This document shows positions 37,136-63,441 of a DNA stretch of 64,000 bases, piece by piece. A model generated the notes under the pieces. That model was not told where the DNA came from. It saw nothing but the letters and a program-made list of their open reading frames with translations, and did not search any database. Source of the DNA: Kiritimatiellia bacterium. GTDB taxonomy: Bacteria; Verrucomicrobiota; Kiritimatiellia; UBA8416; JADHWI01. The position numbers and the translations under genes are program-made. The stretch covers positions 1 to 64,000 of the forward strand of contig JASLPY010000011.1 of the NCBI GenBank assembly GCA_030744755.1. The letters are read 5' to 3'. Each line of letters starts with the position of its first letter. Position 1 is the stretch's first letter.

Positions 37136-37195
37136 TCTCTCGGTAAGACCACTGTCTCCAACTCAAGAATAATGCACAACTCGTGCCAACCCGGC

Positions 37196-38775: not shown

Positions 38776-39363
38776 TTACGCGTGCTTTGCAAGGTATGCA
38801 GCTACGCCGTCCGCCGTAGGCGTCATCGCCTCCTCGCCATCTTTCCAATTGGCAGGGCAAACATCGCCGTGTTCTTCGGTGAACTGCAATGCGTCCAGTA
38901 TTCGCAGCGCTTCGTCAACGTTTCTGCCCAGTGGCAGGTCGTTTACTATCTGGTGCCTGACGATTCCTTCTTTGTCGATCAGGAATAGCCCCCTCAGTGC
39001 TACGGCTTCGTTGAAGAGTACATCGTATTCGCGCGAAATGCTCTTGCTCAGGTCCGCAACCAGAGGATAACCAATCTGTCCGATTCCTCCCTTCTCAGGC
39101 GGTGTGTTCCGCCATGCGAAGTGAGTGTACTGCGAGTCCACCGATACTCCCACTACTTCGGCGTTCTTAGCGTTGAACTTCGATAACGCCTTGTCAAAAG
39201 CCAGGATTTCCGAAGGGCACACGAACGTAAAGTCCAGCGGGTAGAAGAAGAGCACCACATATTTTCCTCTGTAGGACGATAGCGTCACTTCCGCGATGCT
39301 GTTGTCAGGCAGCACTGCCTCTGCAGTGAAATCCGGGGCCTCTTTAGTTACCAACACACTCAT
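38776..39363 (-). CDS. 2-Cys peroxiredoxin (AhpC/Prx1 class)
   Basis: A 195-residue thiol peroxidase that reduces H2O2 and alkyl hydroperoxides. The peroxidatic Cys lies in [15 protein letters not shown] (near residue 50) and the resolving Cys in HGDVCPANW near 168; [13 protein letters not shown] matches the GGLG-type loop of typical 2-Cys enzymes. Its promoter is a sigma54-type site 60 bp upstream, divergent from Ni-SOD. No ahpF is adjacent, so the reductant is probably a thioredoxin or NADH-rubredoxin route. Confidence 0.93.
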
Positions 39364-39424
39364 GTAGTTCCTCCTTTGGTTTGGTCTTTAATAGAGTGCA
39401 CCATTGCACATGCAAATGGCCATA

Positions 39425-39440
39425 TGCAGGAGGCATGCCA
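39425..39440 (-). promoter_or_regulatory. sigma54-type -24/-12 promoter of the peroxiredoxin gene
   Basis: Minus strand TGGCATG-CCTC-CTGCA: GG and GC are separated by exactly 10 nt, as in the TGGCACG-N4-TTGCW consensus. The start codon is 62 nt downstream. Confidence 0.65.
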
Positions 39441-39514
39441 GAACCGCCCAATTGCTGCATCCAGGACAAATAAACCCTCAAGTTCCCTTCATGAGGTACT
39501 TAAGATGAGAATTC

Positions 39515-39590
39515 CTGCCAGTAATGTCTCATCTAGCGATAACCCCAGTGAAACATGCAGCACTATTAACGAGACATAATTTCAGGGCAG
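39515..39590. promoter_or_regulatory. dyad candidate upstream activating sequence
   Basis: CTGCC...TAATGTCTC (39515-39530) is mirrored by GAGACATAA...GGCAG (39571-39590), centred between the two divergent sigma54 promoters. The position fits an enhancer-binding site shared by both genes. Confidence 0.4.
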
Positions 39591-39699
39591 GTCACCGTTT
39601 CCTGCGGCTTGTTCGAGTTCTCATCCTCCACTCTATAGGCTCCAGCCGTCAGCATGGCGTCTGACCCGAATGACATGTGGCTATTCTGGATAGGGTCAC

Positions 39700-39715
39700 T
39701 GGCACGTTTCGTGCA
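39700..39715 (+). promoter_or_regulatory. sigma54-type -24/-12 promoter of the Ni-SOD gene
   Basis: TGGCACG-TTTC-GTGCA: the -24 element matches consensus fully and GG-N10-GC spacing is exact; the -12 element has one mismatch. The start codon is 75 nt downstream. Confidence 0.7.
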
Positions 39716-39789
39716 TGCATAGGGTGAAAAACCAAGTACAAATACACGAAAGGCAGGAACACTGCAAAAAGTCAGAGAAAGGAAAGATT

Positions 39790-40272
39790 ATGAAAGAAGG
39801 TAGAGCGTTGACAGTGAGAAGTTTGTATGTGTGGTCCTTGATGCTGATGGCGGGAACAGCCCTTGGCCATTGTCAGATTCCGTGCGGGATATATGGAGAT
39901 GCAACAAGGATAACCATCCTTCACGAACATGTTACAACCATTGAGAAATCCATGAAGCTTATCGGCAGTCTCTCCGGGGAGAAGCAGCCCGACAACAACC
40001 AGATTGTCCGATGGGTCGTCAACAAAGAGGAACATGCGGACAAGATTGCCCATATAGCTACGCAGTACTTCCTTGCGCAACGTACGAAACCCGTCTCGAA
40101 AGATGACAAGAAGGCTTATAATGAGTATTCAGACAAGCTTACCGTGCTTCACGAGATTATCGTTGCCAGCATGAAATCGAAGCAGTCCCTGGACTCGGCC
40201 AACGCGGCCAAGCTCCATGCGCTGGTTGATAAACTGGCTGCCCTGTACGGAATAAAACAACATAAGCATTAA
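39790..40272 (+). CDS. sodN: exported nickel superoxide dismutase
   Basis: A 160-residue Ni-SOD family protein converting superoxide to H2O2 and O2. The nickel hook appears as HCQIPCGIYG; ligands His1, Cys2 and Cys6 of the mature enzyme correspond to His27, Cys28 and Cys32. Uniquely informative: the hook is preceded by a standard Sec signal peptide (SLYVWSLMLMAGTALG), so signal peptidase cutting after Gly26 would directly expose the N-terminal His. In Streptomyces-type enzymes a dedicated peptidase removes the leader; none is encoded nearby. The helical remainder (NKEEHADKIAHIATQYFLAQR) fits the four-helix bundle. Confidence 0.88.
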   Translation: MKEGRALTVRSLYVWSLMLMAGTALGHCQIPCGIYGDATRITILHEHVTTIEKSMKLIGSLSGEKQPDNNQIVRWVVNKEEHADKIAHIATQYFLAQRTKPVSKDDKKAYNEYSDKLTVLHEIIVASMKSKQSLDSANAAKLHALVDKLAALYGIKQHKH

Positions 40273-55018: not shown

Positions 55019-56680
55019 CTAGATCGAGAATGTGACGGGGGAGCCTGGGATTTCGATGCCTTTGAGCTCGGCGATAGCGTGTCTTACATCCGGGATTCTT
55101 CTGGGGCTGACGCTGACCCGGTTTATCCCCGCGCTTACCAGCCGGTCGATGAATCGGGGGTAACCTGCCAGTTCCCCACACACGGAAAGTGGCTTGCCCG
55201 CCTCCTCCGCCGCAATGGAAATGGTGCGAATCAGGTTCCAGAATACCGGACGGTCCGGGTTGTAGTCGTAGGAAACCAGATCGTTTTCGCGGTCTACCGC
55301 GAATAGGTACTGGGTGAGATCGTTCGTCCCGATGCTGGCAAAATCTGCGTGCATCATGATTTCATCTGCCTGCAGGCAGGCCGACGGAACCTCGAACATG
55401 GCTCCATGCCGTATAACTCCGAAAGGAATATCGCAGATCGAATCCATAAACGCCTGTTTCATGTCGAGAAACTGACGCGCATCCACGATCATGGGATACA
55501 TCACGTGCACTCGACCACCAATCGAGGTTCTTGCGAGCGCCCTGGCCTGGGTTCTCAGGATGTCCTTCTTCCCCAGCAGAAAACGTGAACCACGCCACCC
55601 CAGTGACGGATTCTCTTCTTCCGGAATGCCCATAAACGGGAGCTTTTTATCGCTGCCGAAGTCGAACAGTCTGAAGACAACCATCTTCCCTGCCATAGCA
55701 CTGGCTACGGTGAGGTACCTATCTAAAAGCTCGTCTTCTGTCAGGAGTTGACCGGCGGCAATGATCTCAAATTCCGTCCGGTAGAGGCCTATCCCCTCGG
55801 CCTGCATTTCAACACATGCCTCAATATCGGAGGCCCAGTTGATGTTGGCCTGTACCTTGAAATCATCCACCGGCGCGACGGCTTCGGGAACCCCGCGTTT
55901 CTGCAGATCCTCGGCCCTCGCGTTCGACATGGTATCGTCGCTCGGCCAGATCACGACTTCGCCGGATTCACCGTCCACCAGGAGCTCCGTGCCACAACCC
56001 ACCATGTCACGAATTCCGTGCAATCCGCTGACGGCAGGAATGCCAAGAGAGCGCGCCAGGATCGCCGCGTGCGAGTTGACTCCACCGTGTTCCGTCACAA
56101 ACGCGATGGTAAGATTGGGGTCTACGTCCACGGTCAGGCTCGGAGTAAGCTCTCCCGCAACAATGACGCGATTGCGCCCCCGCCGGCACTGACCACTATC
56201 ACACTTCAGGGTCGGACGAATATCACCCATGACATCAAGAAGACGACGCCTTATCTCTCCGAAATCGCTCGCCCTGGCCTTGATGTACTCGTCATCCAGC
56301 GCCATCAGCTTCGACTCATACGTGTCGAGGACATGGGCGATCGCAAACTCGGCGTTCACGCCTTCCTCGTTCACCGCCTTGATGATGTCATCCAGAAGTT
56401 GTGGATCCTCAAGGATCATCTTGTGCGCTACGAAGATCTCAGCTTCCGCAGGTCCGATGTTCTTCTCCACTTTACCCCTGATTTCCTCGAGCTGCCCGCG
56501 GGAAATCTCCATGGCCCGCTTCACCCTGACTATCTCGAGATCGATACCCGTCCCTTCAACCTTGTACATGGGCATGGTTCTGTGGCGGTTCTCGTTGAAC
56601 ATGCACACTTTGCCCACGGCGCAACCCTTGCTGAGCGCCAGGCCTTCAAGTGTGGTTTCGCGATGTATCGTCTCAGCCAT
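55019..56680 (-). CDS. ptsI: phosphoenolpyruvate-protein phosphotransferase (enzyme I)
   Basis: A 553-residue enzyme I of the PTS family. The active His lies in EHGGVNSHAAILARS near 190, the PEP-binding region is FRLFDFGSDKKLP near 300, and the C-terminus has IGTNDLTQYLFAVDR and SVCGELAGYP. HPr and permease genes are absent locally, so it may serve a regulatory or nitrogen-type PTS. The start at 56680 overlaps the flavo-diiron gene by 8 bp. Confidence 0.9.
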   Translation of the reverse strand: MAETIHRETTLEGLALSKGCAVGKVCMFNENRHRTMPMYKVEGTGIDLEIVRVKRAMEISRGQLEEIRGKVEKNIGPAEAEIFVAHKMILEDPQLLDDIIKAVNEEGVNAEFAIAHVLDTYESKLMALDDEYIKARASDFGEIRRRLLDVMGDIRPTLKCDSGQCRRGRNRVIVAGELTPSLTVDVDPNLTIAFVTEHGGVNSHAAILARSLGIPAVSGLHGIRDMVGCGTELLVDGESGEVVIWPSDDTMSNARAEDLQKRGVPEAVAPVDDFKVQANINWASDIEACVEMQAEGIGLYRTEFEIIAAGQLLTEDELLDRYLTVASAMAGKMVVFRLFDFGSDKKLPFMGIPEEENPSLGWRGSRFLLGKKDILRTQARALARTSIGGRVHVMYPMIVDARQFLDMKQAFMDSICDIPFGVIRHGAMFEVPSACLQADEIMMHADFASIGTNDLTQYLFAVDRENDLVSYDYNPDRPVFWNLIRTISIAAEEAGKPLSVCGELAGYPRFIDRLVSAGINRVSVSPRRIPDVRHAIAELKGIEIPGSPVTFSI

Positions 56681-57863
56681 CGTCACCTTTCGCCGCAATG
56701 TCCGCAAGCTCCCTGCCGGCAACCCTGCATTCTTCCAATATCTCTTGAGTCGGAGCGAACTGGGACTGTATCGGCTCCCTGATGATATTGAACTTCATAT
56801 CGTTCAGGTAAGTCTCGATGTCTTTTGCGGCTCCCTTCGACCATCCATATGACCCGAATACAACACAGGATTTGTCCGATGGTCTCAGGCCCTTGAGATA
56901 CGTCAGTGCGGCGGCCATCTCCGGCATCAGGGTCTGGTTCAAGGTTGGAGATCCGAAGGCAACCGCCGCGGAATCGAGAACTTCCGTTGCAATGTTGGTT
57001 ATGTTCGTGGCGCGCACGTGGATAAGCCTTGCATCGATTTCTCTCTCCTGTGCGCCCCTCAGCACGGCAATGGCCATCTTCTCTGTGCTTTTCCACATTG
57101 TGTCGTAGATCACCAGCACCTTTGCTCGGTTCTTGTGGGCCACCCAATCCTCGTAGGCCGTAATAATGTCGCCGATATTCTTCTGCCAGATCACCCCGTG
57201 GCTGGGCGCGATCATCTCGATCTGCATCTCGGCTGCTCTCTCAAGCACACGGGCAATCGGACGCGTGTAAAGCATCACGATGTTGGCGAAGTACTTCTTC
57301 GCCTCTTCCATCACGGTATCCAGCGGCTCCTGGTAGTCAAACCTGTAGGCAGAAGCCAGGTGCTGACCAAAAGCGTCCATGGAAAACAGGATGTGATCTT
57401 CCTGAACATACGTGAACATGGATTCAGGCCAGTGCACCATGGGAGTATTCATAAAGCTCAGTGTCCTCTTGCCGAGGGACAGGGTATCTCCATCGGTGAC
57501 AATCTTGAATTTCCATGACGCCGTATCGAAATGCTTGGCAAGCGAATCACGGCATTTCGCATTACAGACCAGCTCGGCATCCGGACAAATCTTCATTACC
57601 TCCGGCAGGGCCCCTGAGTGATCGGGCTCCGCGTGATTGCACACCACGTAAGAGATCTTCTCCGGCTCAACAAAATCAGAGATGTGCGCCAGGAGTTGAG
57701 CGGCAAATCGATCCTTAACGGAATCGATCAATGCAATCTTCTCATCCCTTATCAGGTAGGCATTGTACGAGGACCCGCGCTCCGTTGCATAACCGTGAAA
57801 GTCACGTACAGTCCAGTCAATATGACCAACCCAGTCAATTCCTTCTACAAGACTAGTTCTCAT
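56673..57863 (-). CDS. A-type flavo-diiron protein (oxygen/NO reductase)
   Basis: A 396-residue FprA/Roo-type flavoprotein. The metallo-beta-lactamase-like domain carries diiron ligands CNHAEPDHSGA and VHWPESMFTY, with SHG near 225. A flavodoxin domain follows (VLVIYDTMWKSTEKMA, FGSPTLNQT). It reduces O2 to water, or NO to N2O, taking electrons through rubredoxin, which is encoded 11 kb away. Its 3' end overlaps ptsI, an unusual partner. Confidence 0.92.
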   Translation of the reverse strand: MRTSLVEGIDWVGHIDWTVRDFHGYATERGSSYNAYLIRDEKIALIDSVKDRFAAQLLAHISDFVEPEKISYVVCNHAEPDHSGALPEVMKICPDAELVCNAKCRDSLAKHFDTASWKFKIVTDGDTLSLGKRTLSFMNTPMVHWPESMFTYVQEDHILFSMDAFGQHLASAYRFDYQEPLDTVMEEAKKYFANIVMLYTRPIARVLERAAEMQIEMIAPSHGVIWQKNIGDIITAYEDWVAHKNRAKVLVIYDTMWKSTEKMAIAVLRGAQEREIDARLIHVRATNITNIATEVLDSAAVAFGSPTLNQTLMPEMAAALTYLKGLRPSDKSCVVFGSYGWSKGAAKDIETYLNDMKFNIIREPIQSQFAPTQEILEECRVAGRELADIAAKGDDG

Positions 57864-57922: not shown

Positions 57923-60106
57923 CTACCCGTCGGGTTGTCCGCGGAACTTCTTCTCGCGGAGGAATGTAGCAAGTTCAGCCGCGTCGGTCATAGGTTTTTT
58001 GCACGCATAGTTCTCGCACACGTAGGCCGTTGCAACCCCGCCAACACTATTTCTGCCTTCAAACAGTGGTGTATCCATACGCCCGTCAGACGCGGTATCA
58101 AGCAACGCCACAACGCGGTTCGGGTTATACGTGCCCCTTACGGCCCGCAGCATTTCTTCGGTATCCTTGGCGCCTTTCTTGCCAACTACTACGATCTCGG
58201 TGGAAGGCGACAGGTATGCATCGGCAACTGCGACGAGATTGTGACATGCCGAAGGGTAACTGTTTATGACCGTGCTGAAGACCTCCAGCGTCTTTTCGGC
58301 CAACTCCACATACTCCTTCTTTCCAGTGACCCTTCCCAACCTCAGGCATGCCTTTGCCGCCACGGCATTACCGGAAGGAGTTGATCCGTCGAAGTAGGGT
58401 TTGGTGCGAACGAGCAGGTTGTCATGCTTCCCCGAGGTAAAGAAGAAGCCCCCGGACGTTCCATCCCAGAACAGGTCCTTCATTTGTTCCACCAGTTTCT
58501 CCGCTACGGCAATTCTGTCGGGGTTAAAGTCGGCCTCGTACAGGTCAATAAGCGCATTGATCAGATTCCCGTAGTCATCCAGGTATCCGTCCACACTTGC
58601 CTTGTCGCCCCGGAATGTATGACGAAGCTGGCTTCCATTCATCATCCTGGTCAGTATGTGTTGTGCCGCCTTTTCGGCACCTTCGAGAAAGCGCTTCTCC
58701 CCGAACACCTGGTAGCCCCGCGCCAGGCTCGAGATCATCAGCGCATTCCACGAAACCAGTATTTTGTCATCCCGGCCCGGGGCTATCCTCTTCGCACGCT
58801 CGGGAACGAGTTTCTCACGCAGCAAGTCGATACGTTTCAGCAGTTCGCCCTGCTTCAGCTTGTGCTCTTCTGCGAATCTGGCGGCCGACACGGGAATGTT
58901 GAGGATGTTGTGTTCCTCGAAGTTTCCTTCTTCCGAGACCCCGAAGTACTCGCAGAACAGTTTTGAATCACCGGCGCCCAGGGTCTTGTCTATTTCGCCC
59001 TTGGACCATACGTAGTACTTGCCCTCTACGCCTTCGCTGTCAGCATCTTCGGCGGAATGAAATCCCCCGGTGTTGTCGCGCATCTCGTTCAGAACGTAGT
59101 CCATCACTTCTCTTGCTATCCGGCGATACCAGTCATCACCGGTAACAAGGTAGGCGTCGGTATACGACGAGCTCAGGAGTGCGTTGTCATAGAGCATCTT
59201 CTCGAAATGGGGAACCAGCCATTCATGGTCCACCGAGTAACGATGAAAACCTCCACCAAGCTGATCGTACATTCCTCCCTGGGCCATCTTGTCGAGCGTG
59301 TGGGTGACCATTTCGAGAATCTTTGCATTGCCGGTGCCCCGGAAATCTCGCAGCAACAGACCGATTCCCGCACTCGGGGGAAACTTCGGAGCCCTTCCGA
59401 AACCACCCCAGACCGGGTCGAATTGCGTCTCAAGTCCGGATACTGCGTCCTTCAATGCTGATTCGTTAAGGCTCCCGCTGCCTGGCGGAACCTCTTCGCG
59501 CTGCTTTAACGCCTCGGTAAGCCGAGTTGCGTCCTTTAGAACATCCGCATTCTGTTCTTCCCACACCTTGGCGACCTGCGTGAGAAGCGACTTGAAGCCC
59601 GGTCGACCGTACATGTCCTCGGGAGGGAAATAGGTACCACCGAAAAACGGTCTGAGATCGGGCGTCAGGAAGACCGATAAGGGCCACCCTCCGGAGCCCG
59701 TGAGCATCTGGACGGCTTTCATGTATATCGCGTCTACACCGGGGCGCTCTTCACGATCCACCTTGATTGAAATGAACTTGTTGTTCAGGATAGCCGCAAT
59801 CTCGTCACTCTCAAACGATTCACGTTCCATCACGTGACACCAGTGGCAGGACGAGTATCCTATGGAAAGAAAGATCGGCTTGTTCTCTTTTTGCGCCTTT
59901 TCGAATGCTTCACTTCCCCACGGATACCATTGCACCGGATTGTACGCATGCTGTAGCAAGTACGGACTGGTCTCTCCTATCAGATGATTTGGACGCCTAT
60001 CCGATTTGCCGTGCCCTTCTCCCGGGCTGACAACTGTTGACTCAGCACACGACGTCACGATAGCCGCCATTCCGATTCCGGCCAGTAGTATGGTGAATCT
60101 GCACAC
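57923..60106 (-). CDS. DUF255 thioredoxin-domain lipoprotein (SSP411/YyaL family)
   Basis: A 727-residue protein. GTG at 60106 with GGAGG 8 nt upstream gives a lipoprotein signal, [14 protein letters not shown], with Cys20 as lipid site. The thioredoxin-like domain shows [18 protein letters not shown] and is followed by an alpha-toroid region ([35 protein letters not shown]), as in SSP411/YyaL proteins. Those are usually cytoplasmic, so an exported lipid-anchored copy is notable. The reaction is unknown. Confidence 0.88.
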
Positions 60107-60130
60107 AAAACTATCCTCCGATCTGTTCAA

Positions 60131-60451: not shown

Positions 60452-61009
60452 TCATTCTTTCCCACCTTTCACAAGACTCTTGATATGTTTAACGTAGGCC
60501 TCGGGTCCACCGGCCTGATATCCGGTGCGGGCCAGAACTTTGCCATCTTTATCAAGTAACAGCACGGTGGGGTATCCCCTGATCCCGTACTTTTCCGCCA
60601 ACTCCGCGTTCTGCTTTACAACATTATCGGCAAGCTTCTTTCTCGCCGGGAAGTCGGCAAGAAACAGTACGAGATTTGATTTAGCATATTCCTGAAATTC
60701 CTTCTTCGAAAATACCTCGTTGTCCAGTTTGATGCACCAGCCACACCAGTCGGATCCGGAGAAATCTGCAAGGATGGGAATATTCTTCTCGGCAGACCGT
60801 TTTTTTGCTCCTTCAAAATCTGTAGACCAACCCTCGTCCGCCGAGATTTCGGTCTTGGTTTCGGCCTCAGGCTTGGTTTCGACTTCGGTCTTGGTTTCGG
60901 CCTCAGGCTTGGTTTCGACTTCGGCCTTGGTCTCGGTCTCGGTCTCGGTCTCGGTCTGACAACCCACAATAAGTAATCCAGCCACTGCTATTAAAAACGC
61001 TTTCCTCAT
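60452..61009 (-). CDS. thioredoxin-fold lipoprotein with Glu/Thr repeat linker
   Basis: A 185-residue protein. Lipobox LLIVGC with Cys17, then a linker of TETETETETKAEVETKPEAE type made of two near-identical 12-residue repeats, then a thioredoxin domain with GSDWCGWCIKLD (CxxC) and a cis-Pro in GIRGYPTVLLLD. Likely exported disulfide or peroxide reductase, perhaps served by DsbD. The linker DNA is a microsatellite-like tract (GGTCTC units) and may change length. GGAGGAGG precedes ATG. Confidence 0.85.
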   Translation of the reverse strand: MRKAFLIAVAGLLIVGCQTETETETETKAEVETKPEAETKTEVETKPEAETKTEISADEGWSTDFEGAKKRSAEKNIPILADFSGSDWCGWCIKLDNEVFSKKEFQEYAKSNLVLFLADFPARKKLADNVVKQNAELAEKYGIRGYPTVLLLDKDGKVLARTGYQAGGPEAYVKHIKSLVKGGKE

Positions 61010-61093: not shown

Positions 61094-61357
61094 TTAGAAC
61101 CACAGGCCCGAGGCCTGGTGCGACATCTTTTCCTTCTTTGCCTGCGCCCTCATCTTATATGCGCAATCCCTTACCACGCCGTACAATACAGCGCATCCGT
61201 CATCCTTACTCGCAGCTTCTCCTTCATCTGCAAGGATAGTGAGCTCCCTGGCCAGGTCCAGAGTTTTTCGGATGTTTTCGTTACACACTCTAACGGCTCG
61301 ATCAGTCGCTACATTTTTTGACCTTGTATTATTCAAAGTGGTTGTCTCCATAGCCAT
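61094..61357 (-). CDS. small conserved-looking helical protein, sigma54-controlled
   Basis: An 87-residue helical protein (AVRVCNENIRKTLDLARELT; CAVLYGVVRDCAYKMRAQAKKE). Three Cys residues are present. Similar small proteins occur near sigma54 regulators in related anaerobes (recollection, not searched). The promoter is a sigma54 site 37 bp upstream of the ATG, and the sigma54 activator gene lies just beyond. Function unknown; a candidate sensor or effector of the circuit. Confidence 0.65.
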   Translation of the reverse strand: MAMETTTLNNTRSKNVATDRAVRVCNENIRKTLDLARELTILADEGEAASKDDGCAVLYGVVRDCAYKMRAQAKKEKMSHQASGLWF

Positions 61358-61393: not shown

Positions 61394-61409
61394 TGCTAGA
61401 GTCGTGCCA
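61394..61409 (-). promoter_or_regulatory. sigma54-type -24/-12 promoter of the 87-residue gene
   Basis: Minus strand TGGCACG-ACTC-TAGCA: a full -24 match and GG-N10-GC spacing; the -12 element has one mismatch. The start codon is 37 nt further on. Confidence 0.68.
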
Positions 61410-61613
61410 ACTTGGCGGGGCTCTGACCTTCAGGCGCTGTAATATACTGGGAATAAGTCGGTTATGGCGGCCGGAGCGCCTCGAGAAACCCGTCTATGTA
61501 TCACTTAGGTGGTGTCAGTCGGGACAATGAGACACGAATTCGGAGGTCGGAGGACAGAGGTCAGAGATCGGAATTGGGGCCTTGGACGCCAGGTAGAGAT
61601 CTATCTTCTCCAT

Positions 61614-61674: not shown

Positions 61675-63441
61675 TCAGCCATCGACTTCAATGTCATCAA
61701 GAAAGCGGTACAACGTGGCCCTGGATACTCCCAGTAGCTGTGCGGCCTCGACTTTGTTGCCGTTAGTTTCGTCCAGTGCGGCCCGGACGGATGCGACATC
61801 CAGCTTCCGCTTGCGTCGCTTGATGGGCGCTGCAGCGTGCATGTCGATGCCGCGTCGTGGGGGAGGAAGGTGTTCGGGCCTGATAACGTTATCCTTGCAC
61901 TTTATCATGGCGAACTGAATCCAGTTCTGCAGCTCGCGGATGTTCCCCGGCCATTCGTATCCCAGCATCAAATCCAGTGTCTCCGGAGCCACGGTTACTC
62001 CTTCGCGACCGGTATCTTCGCAGGCTCTCTTCAGGATGTGATCGACAAGAAGCGGGATATCGTTTCTTTTCTCTCTCAGGGGAGGGAGCCATAGAGGAAC
62101 AACACTCAGGCGGTAGTAGAGGTCTTCACGGAATCTCCCCGCCTCAAGTTCTTTCCCTATATCCTTGTTCGTGGCACTGATAACCCTGACGTCTACCTTT
62201 ACGGTGGTCTCGCTGCCGACACGTTCAAACGTGCCATCCTGCAGAACTCTCAGTAGCCGTACCTGCATAGCCGGAGATATATCACCCACTTCATCCAGGA
62301 ATATCGTTCCGCCGCCAGCCAGCTCAAAGCGCCCCTTTTTGTCTCTTATCGCCCCCGTAAAGGCCCCTTTCACATGACCAAACAGCTCGCTCTCCAGCAG
62401 AGACTCGGGAAGCGCACCACAGTTAACGGGAACAAAAAGCTTGTTCGCGCGCAGGCCTTCGTTATGAATCGCTGCAGCAACGAGTTCCTTCCCCGTTCCG
62501 CTTTCGCCCTGCACCAGGACCGGGGCATTGGAGTCGGCAAGGTCACGAATCAGATCGAATACCTCGAGCATCTTGTCGTTTCGGCCAATTATTCCAGAGA
62601 AACTGTGTACGTTGCCGAGCCTGCGCGCCATTCGGCGCTCTCTCGTGACATCCTGGAACGTGGCGAGAATGCCTGTCTCCGTACCGTCGTTATCGATCAT
62701 CTTTTTGACGGACATGGTTACTACGCGCTTCTCGCCGGCCTTGGTGACGATATTCATTTCCTGGCCGGAGACCTCCGACACTGATTCGCTTACCTCACAG
62801 AACTGGCATTTTCCGCCGCAGAAATTCCCGGGAAACGCGTCGTGGCAATCATGGTTTATGACCTCATCACGAGAGTACCCCGTGATTTCCTCGGCCGCCG
62901 AGTTGAAATAGAATATCCGCCTGTCCATGTCGTGCGCGATGATGCCGTCGCTGATGTTGTCGACAATCATATCCGCCTGGCATTTGGCCCCCGCAAGCGC
63001 GTGGGCATAGCCGCGCGCGAACAGGTCTTCCACGAGACGCGCTATTTCGTCGCGCGTGCGCCGAAATACGGCCAGATCCTTCTCGTCAATGTCTCCACTC
63101 ATGGGTCCATGGTATGACACCTGGGAAGCGGGGTCCTCGAGATTCCAGTTCACCTTTATGGGGTTCCCGGCGAGGATAGGGCAGTCCCGGTTTGATTCTC
63201 TGCACATTGTGATGACCAGGTCGATGTCCTGGTTTTCCAAATCCGAAAGTTGCCGCGACTGTTGCTGCGAGATGTCTATGCCGACTTCCGACATCACCTT
63301 CACCGCTATCGGGTGGATCCTGCCCGCATGGGTTCCGGCACTCAACACCTCGGTATTGGGCTCGTTCCTTGCCCGGGCAAAACCCTCGGCCATATGGCTT
63401 CGTGACGAATCACTTGTGCAGAAAAGCAGCACCCTTGTCAT
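61675..63441 (-). CDS. sigma54 activator with ArsC-type phosphatase, PAS and Fis HTH domains
   Basis: A 588-residue enhancer-binding protein. Residues 1-140 are a low-molecular-weight phosphatase/arsenate-reductase domain: P-loop CTSDSSR (Cys8, Arg14), Cys80 and Cys87 in TMCRESNRDCPIL, and Asp-Pro in LEDPAS near 103. This is the three-Cys set of thioredoxin-coupled ArsC. A PAS domain follows (about 155-275) with an extra Cys knuckle CGGKCQFC. The AAA+ domain has Walker A GESGTGKE (312-319) and GAFTGA (359-364), the sigma54 contact. A Fis-type HTH ends the protein (KVEAAQLLGVSRATLYRFL). ATG at 63441 has GGGAG upstream. Confidence 0.92.
   Translation of the reverse strand: MTRVLLFCTSDSSRSHMAEGFARARNEPNTEVLSAGTHAGRIHPIAVKVMSEVGIDISQQQSRQLSDLENQDIDLVITMCRESNRDCPILAGNPIKVNWNLEDPASQVSYHGPMSGDIDEKDLAVFRRTRDEIARLVEDLFARGYAHALAGAKCQADMIVDNISDGIIAHDMDRRIFYFNSAAEEITGYSRDEVINHDCHDAFPGNFCGGKCQFCEVSESVSEVSGQEMNIVTKAGEKRVVTMSVKKMIDNDGTETGILATFQDVTRERRMARRLGNVHSFSGIIGRNDKMLEVFDLIRDLADSNAPVLVQGESGTGKELVAAAIHNEGLRANKLFVPVNCGALPESLLESELFGHVKGAFTGAIRDKKGRFELAGGGTIFLDEVGDISPAMQVRLLRVLQDGTFERVGSETTVKVDVRVISATNKDIGKELEAGRFREDLYYRLSVVPLWLPPLREKRNDIPLLVDHILKRACEDTGREGVTVAPETLDLMLGYEWPGNIRELQNWIQFAMIKCKDNVIRPEHLPPPRRGIDMHAAAPIKRRKRKLDVASVRAALDETNGNKVEAAQLLGVSRATLYRFLDDIEVDG

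Follow-up and report, generated by a model that had tools for sequence, protein, structure and literature searches.

The gene at positions 61675 to 63441 of the window, by which we mean the whole stretch of 64,000 nucleotides analysed here, encodes an ArsC-like domain and a PAS domain fused to a sigma54 activator. Taken as a whole, the protein is probably a one-component sigma54 activator of an oxygen, ROS and thiol-defence regulon in anaerobic bacteria. The assignment of the regulon to this kind of defence is very likely right; for a Cys/His cluster in the PAS domain as the main sensor the chance is somewhat better than even. On our best reading the ArsC-like domain would be an accessory thiol sensor, intact in the window copy and decayed in many relatives. 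The regulator is made up as follows:

61675..63441, minus strand: ArsC-PAS-sigma54 activator (EBP), 588 aa (ORF, Pfam, NCBIfam)
63019..63432, minus strand: ArsC/LMWPc-like domain, aa 4-141 (Pfam LMWPc, E 2e-17; structure match)
63418-63420 (C8), 63400-63402 (R14), 63202-63204 (C80) and 63181-63183 (C87), minus strand: ArsC-domain residues
62644..62967, minus strand: PAS domain, aa 159-266 (Pfam, AlphaFold model)
62797..62847, minus strand: PAS Cys/His cluster C199-H200...C208...C212..C215, near-invariant in the family
61858..62592, minus strand: sigma54-interacting AAA+ domain with lid, aa 284-528 (Pfam)
61705..61785, minus strand: Fis-type HTH, whose core GNKVEAAQLLGVSRATLYRFL is conserved in relatives with the same upstream site

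The open reading frame is real; it extends from an ATG at 63441 to a stop at 61675, and a TTG 10 codons 5' of the ATG is also open. Pfam divides the AAA+ region into Sigma54_activat (aa 284-450, E 1e-69) and an AAA lid (aa 456-528), and it locates HTH_8 at aa 553-579 (E 2e-8). These assignments bear out an earlier note, made from the sequence alone, in which an ArsC-type domain was placed ahead of PAS, AAA+ and Fis modules. The protein has what is expected of a sigma54 EBP, namely an AAA+ domain with both the Walker A motif GESGTGKE and the GAFTGA loop, and a Fis-type HTH. The genome from which the window comes contains rpoN as well as -24/-12 boxes with paired predicted upstream sites. The scores against the NCBIfam equivalogs are below cut-off (nifA 358 vs 529 bits, NorR 312 vs 476).

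The best sequence match to the regulator in the PDB is B. subtilis ArsC (1jl3, E 1e-19). An AlphaFold model of aa 1-277 has a mean pLDDT of 92, and its top fold matches are 1jl3 and pI258 ArsC, with a TM score to the target of ~0.85. The NCBIfam model arsC_pI258_fam (TIGR02691) matches with an E value of 1e-29, albeit with 103 bits below its curated threshold of 174; the same holds for the ArsC model NF010053 (90 bits, cut-off 215). In an alignment with B. subtilis ArsC the residues C8, R14, C80 and C87 as well as D103-P104 superpose on C10, R16, C82, C89 and the Asp-Pro of the enzyme, as the earlier note had proposed. Judged by alignment and predicted fold, aa 1-141 belong with the thioredoxin-coupled ArsC proteins rather than with ordinary LMW phosphatases. 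The further statement that only Asn13 and the fourth P-loop Cys are changed turned out to be too narrow. Both substitutions are present in the window copy (ArsC Asn13 to D11, Cys15 to S13), but in our reading of the alignment R63 also stands where ArsC has Asp65, which in pI258 belongs to the potassium site, and a loop of ~8 residues is inserted directly after D103-P104. The domain is moreover part of a regulator for which no ars neighbors were found, and not the free-standing enzyme in an arsenic-resistance context that is expected of thioredoxin-coupled ArsC.

The superfamily includes phosphatases, and the domain could be an LMW-PTP or a YwlE-like arginine phosphatase, and would then act on the regulator or on a partner. 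The CX5R(S) loop and the Asp are present, and YwlE appears among the weaker matches. However, the domain is much closer to ArsC than to LMW-PTP or YwlE, C80 and C87 are in place, and no arginine-kinase or tyrosine-kinase gene was noticed nearby. We find a phosphatase hardly credible.

The ArsC-PAS-sigma54 architecture is shared by 57 or more non-redundant proteins of several phyla, and related genomes have it too. Among the matches listed in a contig scan, the MAGs with the fusion are labeled Lentisphaerae/Kiritimatiellae/Verrucomicrobia, LCP-89, Zixibacteria, Deltaproteobacteria/Desulfobulbaceae, Sedimentisphaerales and Calditrichaeota; the fusion is spread over at least these groups. The viral contigs scanned contained no relatives. 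A plasmid search returned mainly ordinary ArsC, and no record covered 80% of the query.

The two candidate sensor sites differ in their conservation. Of 55 non-redundant fusions, 23 retain C8, 23 R14, 22 C80 and 25 C87, and 12 retain all four; with L008 and L016, two intact sequences outside this set, the complete site is present in 14 of 57 and is a minority state. In the PAS domain, 54 of the same 55 sequences have C199, 50 have H200, 52 have C208, 52 have C212 and 47 have C215. Three members have lost the PAS cysteines and still keep the module. On a tree of the PAS-AAA-HTH part, which was built by a quick method with no bootstrap, the intact ArsC state is scattered; it takes 8 parsimony changes, of which at least 3 are forced by well-supported branches. 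This pattern fits an ancestral intact ArsC site that was lost many times. Close relatives with no detectable ArsC domain also exist, and in one locus (L114) a GAF domain replaces the ArsC-like domain while the small gene and the upstream site described below are unchanged. The N-terminal domain can thus be swapped or lost, and it is the PAS cluster that stays constant.

These data could mean that the ArsC-like domain is vestigial, or purely structural as a dimer contact or an inhibitory surface, and that PAS alone senses, with the Cys set as a leftover. The small number of complete sites and their repeated loss are in line with this, as are the relatives that lack the domain, or have GAF in its place, and retain the small gene and the site; the same upstream site is also used where ArsC is broken, e.g. 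in G026, G014 and G004. Yet several deep clades that are separate from one another, Kiritimatiellota and LCP-89/Zixibacteria among them, retain the full set, the ArsC-like fold is well predicted, and the residues are kept or lost together (C8-C80, Fisher p 3e-8; C80-C87, p 2e-4; the sequences are related and not independent). We consider a vestigial domain rather unlikely; whether the ArsC cysteines of the window copy take part in sensing is evenly balanced. In any case the emphasis that the earlier note gave to the cascade of three cysteines was too strong, with the full set in a minority, a PAS cluster that is near-invariant and a binding-site code that persists past the loss of the ArsC site.

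In most loci a small ORF lies directly 3' of the regulator, and a -24/-12 sigma54 box directly 5' of this small gene. The arrangement in the window is:

61528..61534, minus strand: TGTCTCA, half-site upstream of the sigma54 box (-125)
61497..61503, minus strand: TGATACA, half-site upstream of the sigma54 box (-94)
61395..61409, minus strand: sigma54 -24/-12 box TGGCACGACTCTAGC, just 5' of the small gene
61094..61357, minus strand: 87-aa protein modeled as a helical hairpin, from a conserved family that has no name and is linked to the regulator

The small-protein family has 47 unique members in all, and neither Pfam nor NCBIfam provided a family for those examined. Their alignment shows A43, D52, D64 and E76 as shared residues, with C55, R63 and H80 present nearly always. 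The protein is modeled by AlphaFold as a two-helix hairpin (pLDDT 94). A fold search gave no significant match; encapsulated-ferritin hairpins came up at E ~2, a weak and non-significant resemblance of the sort that any helical hairpin might show. The linkage to the regulator is evident from the 95 related genomes, in which the fusion and the small protein each occur in 24 and both together in 19 (Fisher p 3e-11). The fusion and the small gene are on separate contigs in G004, G005 and G011, and the small gene there retains its promoter and sites.

Within the 64 kb window, TGGCACGACTCTAGC is the sole match on both strands to TGGCA[CT][AG]N4T[TA]GC[AT]. The 7-mer most widely shared upstream of the boxes is TGTCTCA/TGAGACA, which is present in 25 of 34 sequences, whereas 300 single-letter shuffles averaged 0.97 and reached 4 at most; the loci are related and the motif was counted in its own discovery set. 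In the Kiritimatiellota set the half-site pair is oriented, with the second half-site placed near -94. The HTH core GNKxxAAxxLGVxRATLYRFL is equally shared, and this includes members from other phyla.

Beyond the small gene, the site pair occurs one more time in the window, in the intergenic region between a peroxiredoxin and a Ni-SOD gene. The predicted targets and the genes of the neighborhood are:

38779..39363, minus strand: peroxiredoxin (AhpC/TSA), predicted second target
39426..39440, minus strand: sigma54 box TGGCATGCCTCCTGC preceding the peroxiredoxin gene
39525..39576, no strand assigned: half-site pair TGTCTCA (39525-39531) and CGAGACA (39570-39576), common to two divergent promoters
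39700..39714, plus strand: sigma54 box TGGCACGTTTCGTGC preceding the Ni-SOD gene
39790..40269, plus strand: Ni-superoxide dismutase (PF09055), likely start 39790, predicted target
60452..61009, minus strand: thioredoxin-like lipoprotein, encoded by the gene that comes next in the putative operon
57923..60130, minus strand: DUF255/thioredoxin-domain protein
56673..57863, minus strand: flavodiiron protein (ODP beta-lactamase and flavodoxin)

The divergent peroxiredoxin and Ni-SOD genes (38779-40269) thus have one half-site pair between two sigma54 boxes, and the pair is at -136/-91 from the peroxiredoxin box. The thioredoxin-like, DUF255/thioredoxin and flavodiiron genes are located 3' of the regulator on the same strand. 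Another good sigma54 box, TGGCACGAGTTGTGC at 37174-37188 on the minus strand, lies just beyond the end of an MntP-like gene and is without half-sites.

The same code was searched for in 31 genomes from the order to which the window belongs, the one with the Kiritimatiellae/Lentisphaerae MAGs. As a pattern, TGAGACA-N75-104-TGGCAY-N7-GC gave 34 matches vs 4 for a backward control, and it was found in 16 of 20 genomes with the fusion vs 3 of 11 without. About ten of the matches are before the small gene and its thioredoxin-like lipoprotein. Other genes behind matches encode superoxide reductase, hybrid-cluster protein, a redoxin, a thioredoxin with DUF6132 and a rhodanese. A looser scan of the loci found 46 sites, mostly at the small gene, compared with none in reversed sequences; it adds rubrerythrin, named by its likeness to L043|4, to the targets. 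Some scan matches (e.g. L164, L165, L172 and L188) look like chance, and so do those at C498 (within an ORF) and C502 in the window's own genome. At L161 (G000:C12:7879-7984) a site and a sigma54 box precede a gene for a small secreted Cys-rich protein (MRKSRVFVALMILTLGVSLAVPAFAKCGSCSSCGARAKKKACAAACAKACC...). In L174 and L175 (G025 and G017), where the regulator is without the PAS cysteines, matches are found before Hsp20 and ClpB genes; these two cases possibly reflect a rewired signal.

The neighborhoods of the fusion vary between phyla. In Desulfobacterota relatives a peroxiredoxin, Ni-SOD, rubrerythrin or CydAB gene adjoins the module (Ni-SOD and CydAB were named by eye). In LCP-89/Zixibacteria and many Desulfobacterota the neighbors are mainly DsrK/Hdr-like proteins, cytochrome b and histidine kinases and not classic ROS enzymes; in LCP-89/Zixibacteria the DsrK/Hdr-like and cytochrome b genes could serve disulfide-linked electron transfer. 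Loci L065-L078 and L099, from LCP-89/Zixibacteria and relatives, have the fusion and the small protein followed by macro-domain-like, NarI-like cytochrome b and DsrK/Hdr-like genes. Overall, one of the defence genes examined is within reach in only 16 of 53 fusion loci.

The earlier note had suggested direct sensing of arsenate, or of thiol redox state or peroxide. The thiol and peroxide part of this suggestion agrees with the predicted targets, which are defence genes, while the arsenate part does not stand up to the genomic context. A sensor that turns on arsenic resistance upon binding or reducing arsenate would suit the clear descent of the domain from thioredoxin-type ArsC, the presence of the catalytic residues and the one pattern match, in a relative, before an ArsP_1-family permease gene. 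However, no ars gene is among the gene families common to the fusion loci. The canonical, free-standing ArsC of the window's genome (C409) and its ACR3 (C58) are encoded on other contigs; the 350 bases before the former and the 175 before the latter contain no half-site. The arsenate site is moreover lost in most relatives, and the window copy itself has N13D, D65R and the loop insertion. Together, these results make an arsenate sensor very improbable.

Our preferred reading, a one-component activator of oxygen and thiol defence, would work as follows. In anoxic cells the N-terminal PAS and ArsC-like sensor would keep the AAA+ ring inactive. The main signal, which we infer to be an activating one, would be oxidation of the PAS Cys/His cluster, either as a putative metal or Fe-S site or as a thiol switch. 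In members with an intact ArsC site, including the window copy, oxidation of C8 leading to a C80-C87 disulfide may provide a second input, which thioredoxin could reset. The relieved activator would then bind the TGTCTCA...TGAGACA pair ~90-135 bp upstream of the -24/-12 boxes and open the sigma54 promoters of the small hairpin protein, of the thioredoxin-like lipoprotein operon, of peroxiredoxin, of Ni-SOD and of other O2-defence genes. A more specific version, which we regard as unlikely, is a dual thiol sensor, in which the PAS cysteines respond to oxygen and the ArsC cascade to peroxide or to the reducing power of thioredoxin, while the small protein, usually the first target, feeds back on the activator or handles metal or thiols. 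If it were true, an enzyme would have become, in the ArsC fold, a sensor that is read by thioredoxin, and that degenerated time and again where it had become dispensable.

Little is known of oxygen sensing in the strict anaerobes of phyla with few cultured members (Kiritimatiellota, LCP-89, Zixibacteria, many Desulfobacterota). What the present analysis offers is a sigma54 regulator that can be tested and for which binding site and targets are predicted; the unnamed small protein marks the system across phyla, and the intact and broken copies form a natural series of an enzyme-derived sensor domain. The open-licence literature searched does not describe a sigma54 activator that contains an ArsC or LMW-phosphatase domain, nor sigma54 control of Ni-SOD. 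Neither the D. vulgaris sigma54 regulome (PMC4641369) nor a cross-phylum sigma54 survey from 2025 (PMC12316311) mentions a TGTCTCA-type site or arsenate. A one-component sigma54 regulator is a known kind of protein; its combination of sensors, the small protein and the site are undescribed in the open literature searched.

With the thioredoxin-coupled ArsC of S. aureus pI258 and B. subtilis (TIGR02691) the regulator shares the fold, the CX5RS loop and the equivalents of Cys10, Arg16, Cys82, Cys89 and Asp-Pro. It differs in its fusion to PAS-AAA+-HTH, in N13D, C15S, D65R and the loop insertion, in a score below the NCBIfam cut-off and in the lack of an ars context. NreB is a redox or Fe-S PAS sensor with clustered Cys in the context of the oxygen response. 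The regulator resembles it in having clustered Cys in a PAS domain and in the oxygen-response context; unlike NreB it has the spacing C-H-x7-C-x3-C-x2-C, is not a histidine kinase, and has at most a putative cofactor. In overall plan the regulator is like the one-component sigma54 EBPs of the NifA, NorR, PrdR and DhaR type, with PAS or GAF, AAA+ and Fis HTH, and with upstream sites and a sigma54 promoter; a flavodiiron protein is likewise guarded by NorR. Unlike these known EBPs, the regulator is below every NCBIfam equivalog cut-off shown. It adds an ArsC-like domain, a Cys/His cluster in the PAS domain and a distinct TGTCTCA site, and its predicted targets are genes of O2 and thiol defence together with the unnamed small protein.
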